From positions 1-47,117 of the IMG/VR virus record IMGVR_UViG_3300029999_000008: 47,117 nucleotides of DNA; one strand, 5' to 3'. Positions 1 to 9,273 of this stretch are shown piece by piece (position 1 is the stretch's first letter; each line of letters starts with the position of its first letter). Under the pieces are notes generated by a model that saw nothing but the letters and a program-made list of their open reading frames with translations, was not told the DNA's origin and searched no databases. This DNA is from a virus. Made by a program: the position numbers and the translations under genes.

Positions 1-517
1 CGACTGAGGTGACCCACAGCGTCAGCGGCCCGCCGCCACTCGCGACGTAGAGGCTAAAGTTGAACAGTGCGTCGATGGTAAAGACGCAGTAGTAAACCGT
101 GCCAGGTGTGAACGTGTTGACGGTGTTGACATAATACTCGCCGACGTTCGTGTTGATGTAGATAGATCCGATGTCGCCATAAGGCAGTCGCGGACCGGAG
201 ACGCCCCACGCGCCGCTTGAGATAAGATACTGATCCGCGGTCGGCGTGGACTTGAACCAGAACTCGACGGTCAGCGGTGCCGGAAGCTCAAGCCCCACGG
301 GTAGCGAAATCTGCGCCGGAGACCCGGTAAACAGCACGCTTGACTCGCCATCTGCCAGGAGGGGGGTCTGGTTCAACTCTATACCGGGGCCGACAGGGAT
401 CAGCCCATTGAATCCGTGTCCGGACGAGTCAACGGCAACTGTTCCAGACGAATCATTCAGCTTGAAGAACGCCTGTAGTGCGGCCTCCGCAAGAATTACG
501 GCATCATACCCGTTCAT
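1..517 (-). CDS. LamG-like virion/fibre protein, N-terminal part (cut by window edge)
   Basis: Starts with ATG directly after the TAA of the adaptor gene and stays open to the window edge (172 codons plus one base). Residues 15-37 resemble the first strand of a laminin-G/concanavalin-like lectin domain (FFKLNDSSG then VDSSGHGFNG); residues 75-90 (VEFWFKS) fit the next strand. Such domains bind glycans and are common in phage fibres and head decorations. The one spare base at position 1 plus the two spare bases at the right edge make a GAG codon, so the frame continues into the partial gene at the right end if the molecule is circular. Position next to adaptor and nozzle genes suggests a tail or fibre component. 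The LamG call is by pattern only. Confidence 0.7.
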   Translation of the reverse strand, partial: MNGYDAVILAEAALQAFFKLNDSSGTVAVDSSGHGFNGLIPVGPGIELNQTPLLADGESSVLFTGSPAQISLPVGLELPAPLTVEFWFKSTPTADQYLISSGAWGVSGPRLPYGDIGSIYINTNVGEYYVNTVNTFTPGTVYYCVFTIDALFNFSLYVASGGGPLTLWVTSV

Positions 518-1357
518 TTAGTTCCACCCCGTGCGGCGACGACGGAACCAGGTCCGCATGGTCGTTATCATGTACGTCTTCGACTTGTCTGCCTGCAAAG
601 ACTCTTTCCACTTACGGAGCTTCACGCACTCGCTCGCGAACTTGGCCTCGGCCGCCTGATAGTCCGAGTTCTTGTCCGAAAACAAGCAGTCGGCCACAGC
701 GCGGAAGCAGATCGCGTCCTTGAATCGCGCCGGGAACGCCGACAGGTCTGAAGACACACTCATAGTGAACGGCACGGGGACATGATCGACGATAATCTCA
801 AAGCCGCTTATCAACTTACCGTTGATATCGTACGCCGCGGTAGCGTCCGGCGGCGGGACAAGACCGAGGTAACCGCCGCGTAGATAGTACTCGGGCCGCT
901 GACGCGACGAGCCGTTGGCGAAAATATTGTGCCAGACGGAATTGACCGGAGCGGGTAGCCCCTGGCCGCGCCACCCTCCGATGATCGGGTACGACGCAGG
1001 CTGCTGCGCGATCCACTGCGGCGTCATAGCTGGACCGTTGGACTGGATGCCGCTGCTTTGGTCGAAGATGTCGCGTGTGCGCCCTTCAAGTAGGCCAATA
1101 TCGGTACCGATCAGCGGTTGCCTCGATATACCGTTCGTGACGTACACTCGGAGGATCTTCACCAGATCGACGAGCTGGTACTCTTGTTGGCCCGCGACAG
1201 TACCGTACGGCTCAGACGCTTCCGGGAAGTCTACTTCGTAAGCAACCGCATTTTGAGCATCATTAATCAGGCCCGTTAGGTAAGCGTTTGTCCACCTCAC
1301 GGTGCTGGGCTCCGAAAGTAAGATCCGGACTTTTGCAAGCAAGTCGCCGAGCGTCAT
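518..1357 (-). CDS. head-tail adaptor-like protein
   Basis: 279 residues. The N-terminus (TLGDLLAKVRILL, then LTGLINDAQNAVAYEVDFPE) resembles adaptor/connector proteins of podoviruses that sit under the portal (SU10/phiEco32-type adaptor family): helical start, aromatic-rich beta middle, helical C-terminus. The family call is from memory of the pattern and the position downstream of capsid genes and upstream of fibre and nozzle genes; no catalytic motif is expected. The C-terminus is very basic (WFRRRRTGW). Its stop is immediately followed by the start of the LamG-like gene, indicating translational coupling. Confidence 0.55.
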   Translation of the reverse strand: MTLGDLLAKVRILLSEPSTVRWTNAYLTGLINDAQNAVAYEVDFPEASEPYGTVAGQQEYQLVDLVKILRVYVTNGISRQPLIGTDIGLLEGRTRDIFDQSSGIQSNGPAMTPQWIAQQPASYPIIGGWRGQGLPAPVNSVWHNIFANGSSRQRPEYYLRGGYLGLVPPPDATAAYDINGKLISGFEIIVDHVPVPFTMSVSSDLSAFPARFKDAICFRAVADCLFSDKNSDYQAAEAKFASECVKLRKWKESLQADKSKTYMITTMRTWFRRRRTGWN

Positions 1358-2450: not shown

Positions 2451-4007
2451 CTAGTAACTAGAGAGGGTCGGAACCCAGCCTGAGCGGTATGCTTTTTCGG
2501 GGTGCTGATCGACGAGCTGCACAAGCAGAGCGACCGAAAGAGTACCTGCAGCGGCGCTGCTCGTAGTCAAGCGCAGAGTCAGCGAGGCGTTCTTCGGGAA
2601 GATCGCATCGTACTGCACCGGATAGAATGGTTGTACCAGTTCGGGCGTCATGGCTATGGCTTGATCGGCCGCAAACAGCGCCTGACCGATCACTGCGGTG
2701 TTCGGAGGCGTAATACCCGCGCGCGTCGAGTCGGTGTTTGCGATCACCGGAAGTGCGCCGGCCGCCGCGCCACCACTCATCGTAGCTGCGTAAGCAGTGA
2801 CGTTAAGGGATGCAGGGCCTCCCGGCGAAGCAGCGGCGGTGGTCGTGATGCCGTTTCCGCCGGTGCCTGCAGTGCTGTCCACGAAAGTGACGACCGAGCC
2901 GCCGTTATACTGACCGATCGCGTACGCGGTACCGAGAGCGGCGAGCGTAACGTTAGCATTGATCGCTGCCGCAAGGATGACTGCGGCTTGATCGCGCTGC
3001 GTGTTTGCCGGGATGGCCGCAGTAGTGACCGAGGTACCGTTAATGACAACTGTCAGCGTGTCTGTGCCGGCGGGGTTTGCCGATCCATGCACCAGGAACG
3101 ATCCTTGCGCCGGGACCGCGCCCTCGTAGGCTATCGGCCCTTCAACGATGTTGAACGAGGCCGTACCGGCAAGAGAGCCATACGGCAGAACTTCTACCGC
3201 TAGAATCTTGCAGCCGGCCGGCAACGGAAGACGGGCAGCGATTGTGTTCGAGCTTGACCCAACTGCCGGAATAGTGACCGTTGTATCGTCCAACGTGACT
3301 GCGCCCGTGCGAGCCAGGAGGCGCATACTGCCGGTGACCGTGGTTCCGGCAGTGATCGAAGCTTCCGCAAGTACGTTACCTTCGAACGTCGAGCCGTTAT
3401 TGATAGTCGCGGACGAACCGACGACCCAGTATACATTCGCTGCCTGTGCGCCGCCGGTCAAAAGAACCGTGCTGCCAACTGCAGGAATGAATGTGCTCGG
3501 GATCTGAAAGATGAACAGTGCGTTCGGGTTTCCACCAGCGTTAAGATTAACCGTACCCGTGATAGCAAGTGTGCTTACTACGTTATACACGCCTGGCGTA
3601 ATTGTCGTACCGCCGATATCGGCAGCGAGCGTCCCACCCGTGGGCGGTAGTGCATTTAGAGTCGTGTAAGCAGTCGTTAGGTCAACCTGCGCCTGAGCGG
3701 CGGCCGGGGTCGTATCTTGAATGGTGCCGTTGACAACTGTGCCGGGCGGAAATCCGATGATGGACGTGCCGGGATACAGACCGAGGTTACCCGTGACGAC
3801 ACTGGCGCCTGTGTTTGTGACTGTAGTCGCGCCAAGTACCGCGAATGAGGCGGCTGACGCGAGTGCCAGGCTGCCGGCACCGGGGGCTAAGGCAACTTCA
3901 GGGAATCGCAGAATAGAAGCCTGCGTGAACCCGACACCCCGCGGAGCGACGTGATCCTTAGCTTGAATTACCGGCTCAGTCCAAAAGAACGGAGGTGCGC
4001 CTGCCAT
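2451..4007 (-). CDS. virion protein with ice-binding-like (DUF3494) domain
   Basis: 518 residues in three parts. Residues about 1-45 are a virion-like N-terminus. Residues about 46-250 match the DUF3494 ice-binding-like beta-solenoid: SFAVLGATTVTNTG at the start, GTTITPGVY in the middle, then NVYWVVGSSATINNGSTF, GNVLAEASITAGTTVTG and ARTGAVTLDDTTVT, the family's characteristic end. Residues about 255-518 form a separate beta-rich domain (LPAGCKILAVEVLPYG, later VSVALLVQLV) resembling phage decoration or fibre proteins. There is no signal peptide, unlike secreted bacterial members of this family. The gene is eight bases after the major capsid gene, so the product is probably displayed on the virion. 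DUF3494 proteins include ice-binding adhesins, but many members have no known ice activity. Confidence 0.8.
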   Translation of the reverse strand: MAGAPPFFWTEPVIQAKDHVAPRGVGFTQASILRFPEVALAPGAGSLALASAASFAVLGATTVTNTGASVVTGNLGLYPGTSIIGFPPGTVVNGTIQDTTPAAAQAQVDLTTAYTTLNALPPTGGTLAADIGGTTITPGVYNVVSTLAITGTVNLNAGGNPNALFIFQIPSTFIPAVGSTVLLTGGAQAANVYWVVGSSATINNGSTFEGNVLAEASITAGTTVTGSMRLLARTGAVTLDDTTVTIPAVGSSSNTIAARLPLPAGCKILAVEVLPYGSLAGTASFNIVEGPIAYEGAVPAQGSFLVHGSANPAGTDTLTVVINGTSVTTAAIPANTQRDQAAVILAAAINANVTLAALGTAYAIGQYNGGSVVTFVDSTAGTGGNGITTTAAASPGGPASLNVTAYAATMSGGAAAGALPVIANTDSTRAGITPPNTAVIGQALFAADQAIAMTPELVQPFYPVQYDAIFPKNASLTLRLTTSSAAAGTLSVALLVQLVDQHPEKAYRSGWVPTLSSY

Positions 4008-4014
4008 GTGTTAA

Positions 4015-4956
4015 TTACCCCTGGCTTCCGACAATACCGCGTTGTTCGACGGCATCGTACATGATACGAAACTCGGTTTCGTGGACCATGCCTTTACGAT
4101 CCTCGTCGTAATGTGCTTCCTGCTCGTCCCATTTGACGGAGGCGAAGAGTGCATGTGCATCGGTTCCGAGTTCGCCCTTGCCGGCGGTAACGAACCACGG
4201 GTACGGGCCGCCGAACGGCGCCGTGATGTACTTGACCGCGAGCGGATCGACCACTCCGGCGACCGGGTTGACGTCATTTTGCGACGTTCCGGGATAGTAG
4301 AACGATTGGAGGGTCTGGGTCGCCTGTTTGCGAAGATACGTCGGGAACACGAGTTTCCGCGGCGTTTTCGAGGTCAGGAGGACACCACGATCATCCGGCA
4401 TGATTGCCATGAGGTCGATCGCCGCTTGCAAGGCGTCAACCGAGAGGCCGACGTTGAGCAAGAGATTCGAGAACGTTACTGCAGGGTTAGCCGCGCAGGG
4501 GATGTTCGCCGAAATCAACGGGAGACCATTGACCGCGAGCGGAACAGCGGGATTGAAGGCAAAGTTGAGAATCGACCAGATCAAGAACTCCTTGGTTTGA
4601 TCGCTTGAGTAGCGCAGCAAGCCTGGGAGTTTCGGGATCAGCGACTTCGGATCTTCGCGCATCGCTTCTTTCGAAACGAAGTAGCGCAGGGCGTACGTGG
4701 TCCATGCGAAGGACGAACGTGCCGCCTCGCGCGCCACATCGACGGCCGGAAGCGCGCCTTCCGTGCGTTCTTGCAGAACGCCGAAGCCAGCGATGGAAAG
4801 TACGGTCGCGAACGAGCGATCTTCCGGGAAGTCCCAGTCATTGAAAAGCTCAGGGTAGACCACGGGCTCCATCGGAGTCGAGTTCGAGTAGAGCTTCATT
4901 ACGATGGAGGAGTTCGCCTGGAAGAACTCCCGCGTGGTCATGGTATTGGTTGCCAT
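4015..4956 (-). CDS. major capsid protein
   Basis: 313 residues with the layout of HK97-fold major capsid proteins of podoviruses: an N-terminal arm, a long helix-containing stretch around residues 75-130 (VAREAARSSFAWTTYALRYFVSKEAMRED), a loop-rich middle (PDDRGVLLTSKTPRKLVFP) and a C-terminal strand with charged tail (WDEQEAHYDEDRKGM). The statement rests on this pattern and on the order scaffold, decoration, capsid. The nearest visible upstream promoter is in front of the preceding decoration gene, so both are probably co-expressed at high level. Confidence 0.75.
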   Translation of the reverse strand: MATNTMTTREFFQANSSIVMKLYSNSTPMEPVVYPELFNDWDFPEDRSFATVLSIAGFGVLQERTEGALPAVDVAREAARSSFAWTTYALRYFVSKEAMREDPKSLIPKLPGLLRYSSDQTKEFLIWSILNFAFNPAVPLAVNGLPLISANIPCAANPAVTFSNLLLNVGLSVDALQAAIDLMAIMPDDRGVLLTSKTPRKLVFPTYLRKQATQTLQSFYYPGTSQNDVNPVAGVVDPLAVKYITAPFGGPYPWFVTAGKGELGTDAHALFASVKWDEQEAHYDEDRKGMVHETEFRIMYDAVEQRGIVGSQG

Positions 4957-7117: not shown

Positions 7118-7367
7118 CTGGTAAGTCAAACTCCTGTATTATCGCGTCCGGCATCGGCAGATTCTTGTCCACCTTGCGGTACATCGCAGTTATCGTGTGC
7201 TTCAGAACCTGGAACTTCGCGAAGGCCGCTGCATATCCTGCAGAGTCTCTGTGGTCGGTGTGTAGTAACGAGCGGCGCAGCGTTCGGATCGTGGGGACGA
7301 GTTCGTCTGTAAAAATCGTCGCCCATGATGCAGAGCTAAGCGCCTCCCTGAGGCTTGGCCGGTCCAC
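7107..7367 (-). CDS. small helical protein between portal and scaffold
   Basis: 86 residues from a GTG start preceded by AGGGGG. It overlaps the portal C-terminus by 32 bases and the scaffold start by 11 bases, typical of tightly packed head genes. The sequence is helical (TDELVPTIRTLRRSLLHTDH; AAFAKFQVLKHTITAMYRKVD). No known family recognised. It may be a head assembly cofactor; that is positional inference. Confidence 0.55.
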   Translation of the reverse strand: MDRPSLREALSSASWATIFTDELVPTIRTLRRSLLHTDHRDSAGYAAAFAKFQVLKHTITAMYRKVDKNLPMPDAIIQEFDLPDGF

Positions 7368-9273
7368 TGGGTACCCCCTTCGGGCCGATCTTAGAGTGAC
7401 TCATCAGTTGTAGGAGCATTTGCTGCTGTTGCTGTTGTTCCTGCGCCTTAGCTTGCTCCTCGAAGTGCTCGACGCCTTCTTCCATAGTACCAATGATCGC
7501 AGTGACTTCAGGTATGTCAAAGGTCTCAAGTACCATACGGCTAATGGTCCACATGTGCTGTGGGTTGCCCTTAACAAAGGCACTGAGCGTCGGACTCTGG
7601 TCAATGAGGCGAACCAGGAGGAGAATGTCCTGCCGGCGGGACTCCTTGTCGAGAGGTCCTCCCTGCCCAACTACGCCGAACGTGAAGTCGAGAAAGAACA
7701 GCTCTTTCGGGATAATCATCTTCCGCGGATTGCCGCCTGAGTTGGCAACCACTTCCATTTGATCGGGCCCGTACTTGATATTCAGCCCGTGCGAGTACTC
7801 GACCATAGCGCGTGCCCAGAAGCGTATGCGCTGTAAAGACATGTTGGTTTGCATCTGCTGGATAGCCGATATACTCTGTGCAGCTCGTGCCGAAACGCGG
7901 CCTCCAGATTGTGCGGATGCAGCCAGGGAACTGGCCTGGGGTGCTCCAGTGACTTTCGCAGCGTATTGAAGTAGGCGGCTCTCTTCTTGGTCCGCCGACG
8001 GAGGAGGGTCGCCGAGCTTGACGAAGCCGACATCTTGTGGTCCATTTGGTACAATCCACTCTTTCTGCGGCCCCTGCCGGCGCGTTTCGTCGTCTGTACG
8101 GACATTCTCTGTCTTGTAACGATCCGGATTAAGGCACATGTCGAGCCATTGCAGGCGCGCGTTGTGAATCGAGTCAACCTCGTCCTGTATGGGTTTCAGC
8201 CGTTCCGGAAAGCCAATACCATAGAAACGGTTTGGACGGGCTATAAGTGAAAGGGCTTTGAACGGCCGTCCCCCCGGATACTCGAATGGTGCGAACCCAA
8301 TCAGCCGTCTTGAACGGTCCTGTACCCATAGAATGTTCTCCTCCGGGATGCCGTCACCATCAAGGTCAAGAAGATTCGTGTGGATGCGCCACACCTGCGT
8401 CGGTCCGATCGCCATTGTCATGCCTACCGGCGGCGCGATGGATGTATCGACTACATTGATTCGTCCAGCCATCGTGTAAGTGGCGTTGCCTTGCCTATCC
8501 CACGACTGGTCACCTTGAGCAGAGTTCGAGTACGCGACGACCATATCGACGCGCTCTTTAGGAAACACGCCAGCGGCCTGCATAGCGCGCATGTCATGCT
8601 CAGACATGTAGAGCTTACGAGCTACGAGGTCGGCTTTTTCGATTGATGGTGCATGTGCTGGGTAGAGTACAAAGTCACGCAGCTCGACAGCATTCCAGCG
8701 GACGCCCGTGAAGTCAACGTACTTGACCCACTTTTTAGCCTTGTGTACTTGGCCGGTAGCTTCGTCAGTCTCATCTACAACGACCAGCTCGGAGTGCGTG
8801 CTGGTGTCCCATATCACTTCGCCGATGCAGGTACCGTTGAGGATGCTGAGCATGATCGCATCGTCGATGGCCTGGTCCCAGCCATTATCGTGGACCTTGT
8901 TGCAGTACCACTCCTCAACCAGGTGGGAGTACTGGGCGGCCTGGGGATCGTTACCGCGTACCGTGAACAGTCTGTCCTGCAGGATTGTGGCCGTAAGGCG
9001 GGCGCGCAACTCGTCGCACTCGGCGGCGACGATCGGGGACACAAAGTTCGAAGACTCCGGATACGGATTATCGCGCTCTTCGACCGCCATCTCGTACATG
9101 GAGTCCCAGAGGTCTAAAGCAGCGTCGAGCCCGGAGCGATTCCCGAGCCCGAGTTCTACAAGCTGCATAGCCGTCTCGCCGACAGTATCCCACTGGTCAG
9201 ACGAAAGCTCCGGCATCGGGAGCCGGATGTCGGCCTCAGGCTGCTGGGTCTTGGTCGCGGCCCGCCTTTTCAT
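7336..9273 (-). CDS. portal protein
   Basis: 645 residues, in the size range of podovirus portals. Helical N-terminus (LDLWDSMYEMAVEERDNPYPESSNFVSPIV), then the wing/stem region (WYCNKVHDNGWDQAIDDAIML, GEVIWDTSTHSELVVVDE), a segment typical of this portal group (NILWVQDRSRRLIGFAPFEYPGG and FYGIGFPERLKPIQDEVDSI) and a glutamine-rich C-terminus (QEQQQQQQMLLQ). It forms the dodecameric DNA channel at one capsid vertex. Gene order terminase, portal, scaffold, capsid supports the call. Confidence 0.85.
   Translation of the reverse strand: MKRRAATKTQQPEADIRLPMPELSSDQWDTVGETAMQLVELGLGNRSGLDAALDLWDSMYEMAVEERDNPYPESSNFVSPIVAAECDELRARLTATILQDRLFTVRGNDPQAAQYSHLVEEWYCNKVHDNGWDQAIDDAIMLSILNGTCIGEVIWDTSTHSELVVVDETDEATGQVHKAKKWVKYVDFTGVRWNAVELRDFVLYPAHAPSIEKADLVARKLYMSEHDMRAMQAAGVFPKERVDMVVAYSNSAQGDQSWDRQGNATYTMAGRINVVDTSIAPPVGMTMAIGPTQVWRIHTNLLDLDGDGIPEENILWVQDRSRRLIGFAPFEYPGGRPFKALSLIARPNRFYGIGFPERLKPIQDEVDSIHNARLQWLDMCLNPDRYKTENVRTDDETRRQGPQKEWIVPNGPQDVGFVKLGDPPPSADQEESRLLQYAAKVTGAPQASSLAASAQSGGRVSARAAQSISAIQQMQTNMSLQRIRFWARAMVEYSHGLNIKYGPDQMEVVANSGGNPRKMIIPKELFFLDFTFGVVGQGGPLDKESRRQDILLLVRLIDQSPTLSAFVKGNPQHMWTISRMVLETFDIPEVTAIIGTMEEGVEHFEEQAKAQEQQQQQQMLLQLMSHSKIGPKGVPSGPAKPQGGA

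Follow-up and report, generated by a model that had tools for sequence, protein, structure and literature searches.

Ice-binding proteins are known from cells. Phage virions, for their part, carry Ig-like accessory domains, optional and portable beta domains on structural proteins that are thought to bind surfaces. Among the described proteins that the domain presented here resembles are the secreted ice-binding proteins EfcIBP (6EIO) and AnpIBP (7BWX). Mutation has identified the b-face as the ice-binding face of AnpIBP; positions 1, 2, 4 and 6 of each of its six-residue strands point outward, and replacement of S153 and T156 by Tyr brings the activity down to 17% (PMC7277481). Column 2 of this face is in EfcIBP of the type of the weaker binders, while the all-Ala type belongs to strong binders such as SfIBP (PMC12337378). 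"Ice-binding-like" genes of the same Pfam family, PF11999 (DUF3494), have been described in viral contigs and are read as genes for host cryoprotection, with no account of their gene context in the passages concerned (PMC11515562). A literature search found no paper that contains both words, DUF3494 and phage. The domain described here lies in an IMG/VR virus record (IMGVR_UViG_3300029999_000008), and we refer to the whole stretch analysed, 47,117 nucleotides in length, as the window. It matches EfcIBP and AnpIBP over the full length of the domain (E 4e-43 and 2e-31, respectively) with aligned b-face strands; however, it has no signal peptide, is part of a phage protein encoded beside the capsid gene and comes without any ice-activity data. 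With the Ig-like virion domains it shares the character of an optional, portable beta domain fusion, but it belongs to another fold family.

A DUF3494 insert in the protein encoded behind the capsid gene

The 518-aa protein is composed of a short N arm, the DUF3494 insert and a C-terminal phage domain (Table 1). The PF11999 profile matches residues 57-245 over positions 1-208 of 208 (E 5.2e-53, 180 bits against a cut-off of 28.7), which meets the test for family membership, a score over the curated cut-off along the entire domain length. This is the only copy that the profile search finds in the whole record, and the same search of 14 control genomes gave no match; together with the E value of 5e-53, this rules out a chance match. 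The first-pass annotation had placed a DUF3494 domain at residues 46-250 or so, and the profile match bears this out. The closest solved structures are ice-binding proteins, with EfcIBP 6EIO at the top (residues 47-248, E 3.8e-43), followed by 5UYT (E 4e-40) and AnpIBP 7BWX. From homology to these structures we infer that the domain would adopt a right-handed beta-solenoid fold with a long helix. Secretion by a signal peptide is usual for cellular DUF3494 ice-binding proteins, and the window protein does not meet this criterion: a signal-peptide-like N terminus was sought in the 518 residues and none was found, in agreement with what had been noted at first pass. The gene does follow directly behind the capsid gene as noted then, with a spacing of 7 rather than 8 bases, and lies on the minus strand, which had been left unstated.

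Table 1. Positions in the window of the DUF3494 protein gene, its parts and nearby phage genes.
Feature	Positions	Strand	Basis
SU10-type adaptor protein gene	518..1357	-	PF24175, E 1.7e-17
Next gene after the DUF3494 protein, 149 aa	1993..2442	-	Kept in L111 and L184, 31-36% identity
Post-capsid protein gene, 518 aa	2451..4007	-	Open reading frame; orthologues in L111 (with insert), L184 and L182 (without)
C-terminal phage domain, residues 248-518 plus stop	2451..3266	-	33% identity to L111; aligns with L184 and L182
DUF3494 (PF11999) domain, residues 47-247	3267..3869	-	Profile match, solved homologues
N arm, residues 1-46, with Ala/Pro/Gly-rich linker at its end	3870..4007	-	No signal peptide
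Major capsid protein gene	4015..4956	-	Phage_capsid_4 (PF25209), E 9.6e-9; relatives
SU10-type portal protein gene	7336..9273	-	PF23899, E 7.7e-18; 39.5% identity to L111

Around the DUF3494 gene we also find genes for the terminase, an internal virion protein and a virion protein with a lytic transglycosylase domain. Three further IMG/VR fragments (L002, L003 and L020) come from the same virus, from samples that we take to be Swedish palsa peat, although a search by sample number gave no paper on the habitat; palsa, fen and NGEE labels are found in the titles of records from bacterial relatives. L003 connects window positions 453 and 47117 with about 1.3 kb between them, so the record probably represents a nearly closed genome that is circularly permuted. 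A LamG-domain protein gene (window 2-517, minus strand) runs off the start of the window and has its counterpart at 8137-10203 of L003. The two proteins are 59% identical, while the flanking ~8 kb are 99.5% identical. With this LamG-domain protein, the phage also carries a lectin-like domain in addition to DUF3494.

A divergent relative, L111, is a 50-kb viral contig that was found by a scan with viral DUF3494 domains. The gene for its 541-aa protein starts 2 bases behind the capsid gene. This protein aligns with the window protein over DUF3494 and the C-terminal domain, and both genomes have the gene order capsid gene, DUF3494 protein, a 146/149-aa gene and then the adaptor. DUF3494 is the best conserved of the stretches compared (48.5% identity, against 32.5% for the C flank, 36% for the capsid, 33% for the adaptor and 39.5% for the portal). 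A scan with the C-terminal half alone gave matches only to the same virus, and it is the L111 orthologue that shows the C-terminal flank to have relatives. The N arm by itself does not match L111 significantly; a likeness to the gene after the capsid gene of another contig (L059) was not significant either. A Pfam and PHROG search with the C-terminal part of the window protein gave no hit, neither to a known decoration family nor to any other, and phage head decoration proteins are very diverse in sequence.

Two more contigs, L184 and L182, were found by a scan with the two capsid proteins, and their own share 90-92% identity with the capsid protein of L111. Their post-capsid orthologues resemble the window protein in their place in the head cluster and in a homologous C-terminal domain, but have only 320 aa, and the whole DUF3494 stretch of ~200 aa is absent. 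The L184 and L111 proteins are 77% identical in the N part and ~78% in the C part, and a PF11999 search of the L184 record gave no match. The DUF3494 domain is an insert in a phage protein, cleanly present or absent among relatives, and since relatives without it exist, it is not essential. The place beside the capsid gene, which is what we asked of a head accessory protein, is conserved in the window, L111, L184 and L182. That the domain sits within a virion protein remains an inference from gene position and relatives, without proteomics for this uncultivated phage. An HNH-endonuclease-like gene lies between the capsid and post-capsid genes of L184 (5977-6585) and L182 (2133-2741) and is absent at the matching place in L111 and the window.

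Recurrence and history of the domain in viruses

DUF3494 in phage is not limited to one phage: the scan with viral DUF3494 domains finds at least 94 viral loci that encode a relative. Our census started from the domain of the window and covers the best 80 of these at least 94 loci; 90 proteins were analysed, reduced to 61 non-redundant ones at 95%, and with the domain masked these fall into about 20 flank families. A signal-peptide-like start is present in 3 of the 61 viral proteins compared to 25 of 29 cellular homologues (Fisher p 6e-15). The calls rest on a simple home-made rule, the cellular homologues were fetched with the window protein, and some census contigs are perhaps miscalled as viral, for example the three with signal-like starts. 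These counts bear on the reading as an auxiliary gene for protection of the infected host against freezing, in line with which three Arctic viral PF11999 genes are annotated in PMC11515562. Such a gene would be expected outside the structural cluster, with a product that acts in the host cell or is secreted by it. Gene anatomy makes this reading a poor fit here, because a head-cluster protein carries the domain as a fusion, an insert-free orthologue occupies the same place, and 58 of 61 viral proteins have no signal peptide. We therefore reject host cryoprotection on anatomy and regard it as very improbable.

A second clean insertion is seen in a 1632-1768-aa protein of several contigs when compared with gp19 of the cultured Tunturiibacter phage Tunturi_3, which is without the domain and is annotated in its record as head decoration protein. 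Like the window protein and its orthologues, gp19 and its homologues in L055-L058 represent a phage scaffold with DUF3494 in some members only; the scaffold is, however, unrelated, and its DUF3494 copies fall in another clade. This phage structural protein scaffold of 1.1-1.8 kaa occurs in L055 (3224-8122), L056, L057, L058 and L061 (18001-21411), with the insert, where present, near the C terminus, and the insert-free homologue comes from a cultured tundra acidobacterial phage. A third clean insertion concerns a ~400-aa protein with neighbouring paralogues that are devoid of the domain, and several phages encode two DUF3494 proteins per genome. Neighbouring genes of recognisable family are mostly those for major head protein, terminase, protease and tail fibre, and most neighbours match nothing. 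DUF3494 recurs in what are probably shell and tail proteins of many phages. No credible match was obtained in 50,697 isolated-phage records searched with the whole protein and two DUF3494 domains. In 45 more distant capsid relatives (L012, L065-L108) the genes behind the capsid gene are very variable, and DUF3494 is found there in only one lineage (L012, L096). Some of the other post-capsid occupants, in L075, L077 and L101, have signal-peptide-like starts. An extra segment of ~85 residues, a nested insertion, is located in the middle of DUF3494 in L012 (2508-4022) and L013 (2365-3879), and one protein of a 310-kb contig from a large viral genome (L014, 5635-6861) combines one DUF3494 copy with a partial second.

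Of the 62 viral domains in the tree, 53 belong to a single clade. Within it, the 15 scaffold families (52 rows) require 20 changes, and DUF3494 therefore appears to pass from one phage protein to another. A cellular domain (L022, 59% identity) from a metagenome-assembled genome labelled Frankia groups with those of the window and L111. The tree needs four changes between viral and cellular labels, the AU test does not reject a single viral clade (p 0.27), and the sister grouping of window and L111 is weakly supported (53). Hence, we claim neither a number of captures nor one event for the inserts of window and L111.

The b-face and its possible ligands

Mapped onto the window protein by sequence alignment only, the AnpIBP b-face strands correspond to TTVTNT, STLAIT, STFIPA, SSATIN, ASITAG and GAVTLD, starting at residues 61, 145, 171, 198, 216 and 235. 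Their outward residues are A, G, S or T in 21 of 24 cases (p 6e-5 against the domain's own composition), 15 of them T or S, and on this alignment the criterion of a flat, small-residue face with Thr/Ser rows is met. The ice residues S153 and T156 of AnpIBP align with S198 and T201, i.e. Ser and Thr are found at the matching positions. Column 2 reads T, T, T, S, S, A and resembles that of the weaker binder EfcIBP rather than the all-Ala type, which speaks against strong ice binding. A T/S-rich b-face is a family trait that cellular copies have too, and alone it is no proof of ice binding. Across the 62 viral domains, the outward b-face residues are 85% A/G/S/T compared to 47% elsewhere and form the least variable surface (entropy 1.04 against 1.45 for the rest), whereas the corresponding residues of 37 cellular domains show no reduced variability (1.93 against 1.85). 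One clade dominates among the viral domains, but the comparison was made within the same sequences.

This conservation speaks to the question whether the domain has a ligand at all. It could be an inert, stable spacer or particle stabiliser, retained because it folds well, and its dispensability in relatives agrees with such a role, as does the frequent occurrence of compact beta folds among phage decorations. An inert spacer would have no need for a b-face that is the least variable surface, and the conservation of this face in the viral copies disfavours the spacer option that had been offered at first pass, which we consider improbable. The companion suggestion, a carbohydrate- or ice-binding decoration, gains support from the dispensable insert in the head cluster, the recurrence without signal peptides and the b-face conservation.

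If a ligand is bound, ice is the preferred candidate, since it is the ice-binding face that is conserved. The displayed domain might instead serve as a weak adhesin, comparable to the Ig-like domains of phage heads, that holds on to the host cell surface, to extracellular polysaccharide or to polymers in soil, with the b-face binding a repetitive sugar surface. One viral scaffold fuses DUF3494 to a fibronectin-III-like segment, and the nearby LamG-domain protein differs strongly between strains that are otherwise nearly identical, both of which would suit adhesion. Surface adhesion is another described setting of DUF3494, which is found in ice-free places too (PMC12337378). Against an adhesin stands that the conserved face is the one for which mutation of AnpIBP has shown ice binding (PMC7277481) and that no sugar-binding site was found. 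We hold an adhesin for rather unlikely; polysaccharide is nevertheless the main rival ligand, and the choice between ice and polysaccharide is undecided.

With a confidence only slightly better than even, we propose that the domain is a portable binding module displayed on the virion with ice as the likeliest ligand, where virion assembly, outward display and ice binding are all inferred. The gene product would be a structural protein associated with the head of an SU10-type tailed phage, with DUF3494 inserted between the N arm and the C-terminal domain via Pro/Gly/Ser/Ala-rich linkers. The phage part, probably the C-terminal domain, would attach to the particle, and the DUF3494 domain would project outward on the linkers and bind surfaces through its flat Thr/Ser-rich b-face, most likely ice or the ice-water interface. 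Particles might in this way be retained at the ice or within the unfrozen film, or freeze damage might be limited.

Possible significance for phages in frozen habitats

The empty-site pairs (L111 and L184; the DUF3494-bearing homologues and Tunturi_3 gp19) provide matched controls, so a test with recombinant proteins is possible. Beyond this locus, we tentatively suggest, at somewhat less than an even chance, a class of phages whose virions bind ice directly via DUF3494 domains inserted into head and tail proteins, with a domain clade that moves among scaffolds. The way viral PF11999 genes are read in the literature is corrected in so far as they need not be host-protection genes. Because the domain recurs in phage proteins, it is possible that some virus particles adhere to ice or to surfaces resembling it. 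If the virion does carry the domain, adaptation to freezing would be a property of virus particles and not of their hosts alone, which would affect how viruses survive and are transported in frozen soils.
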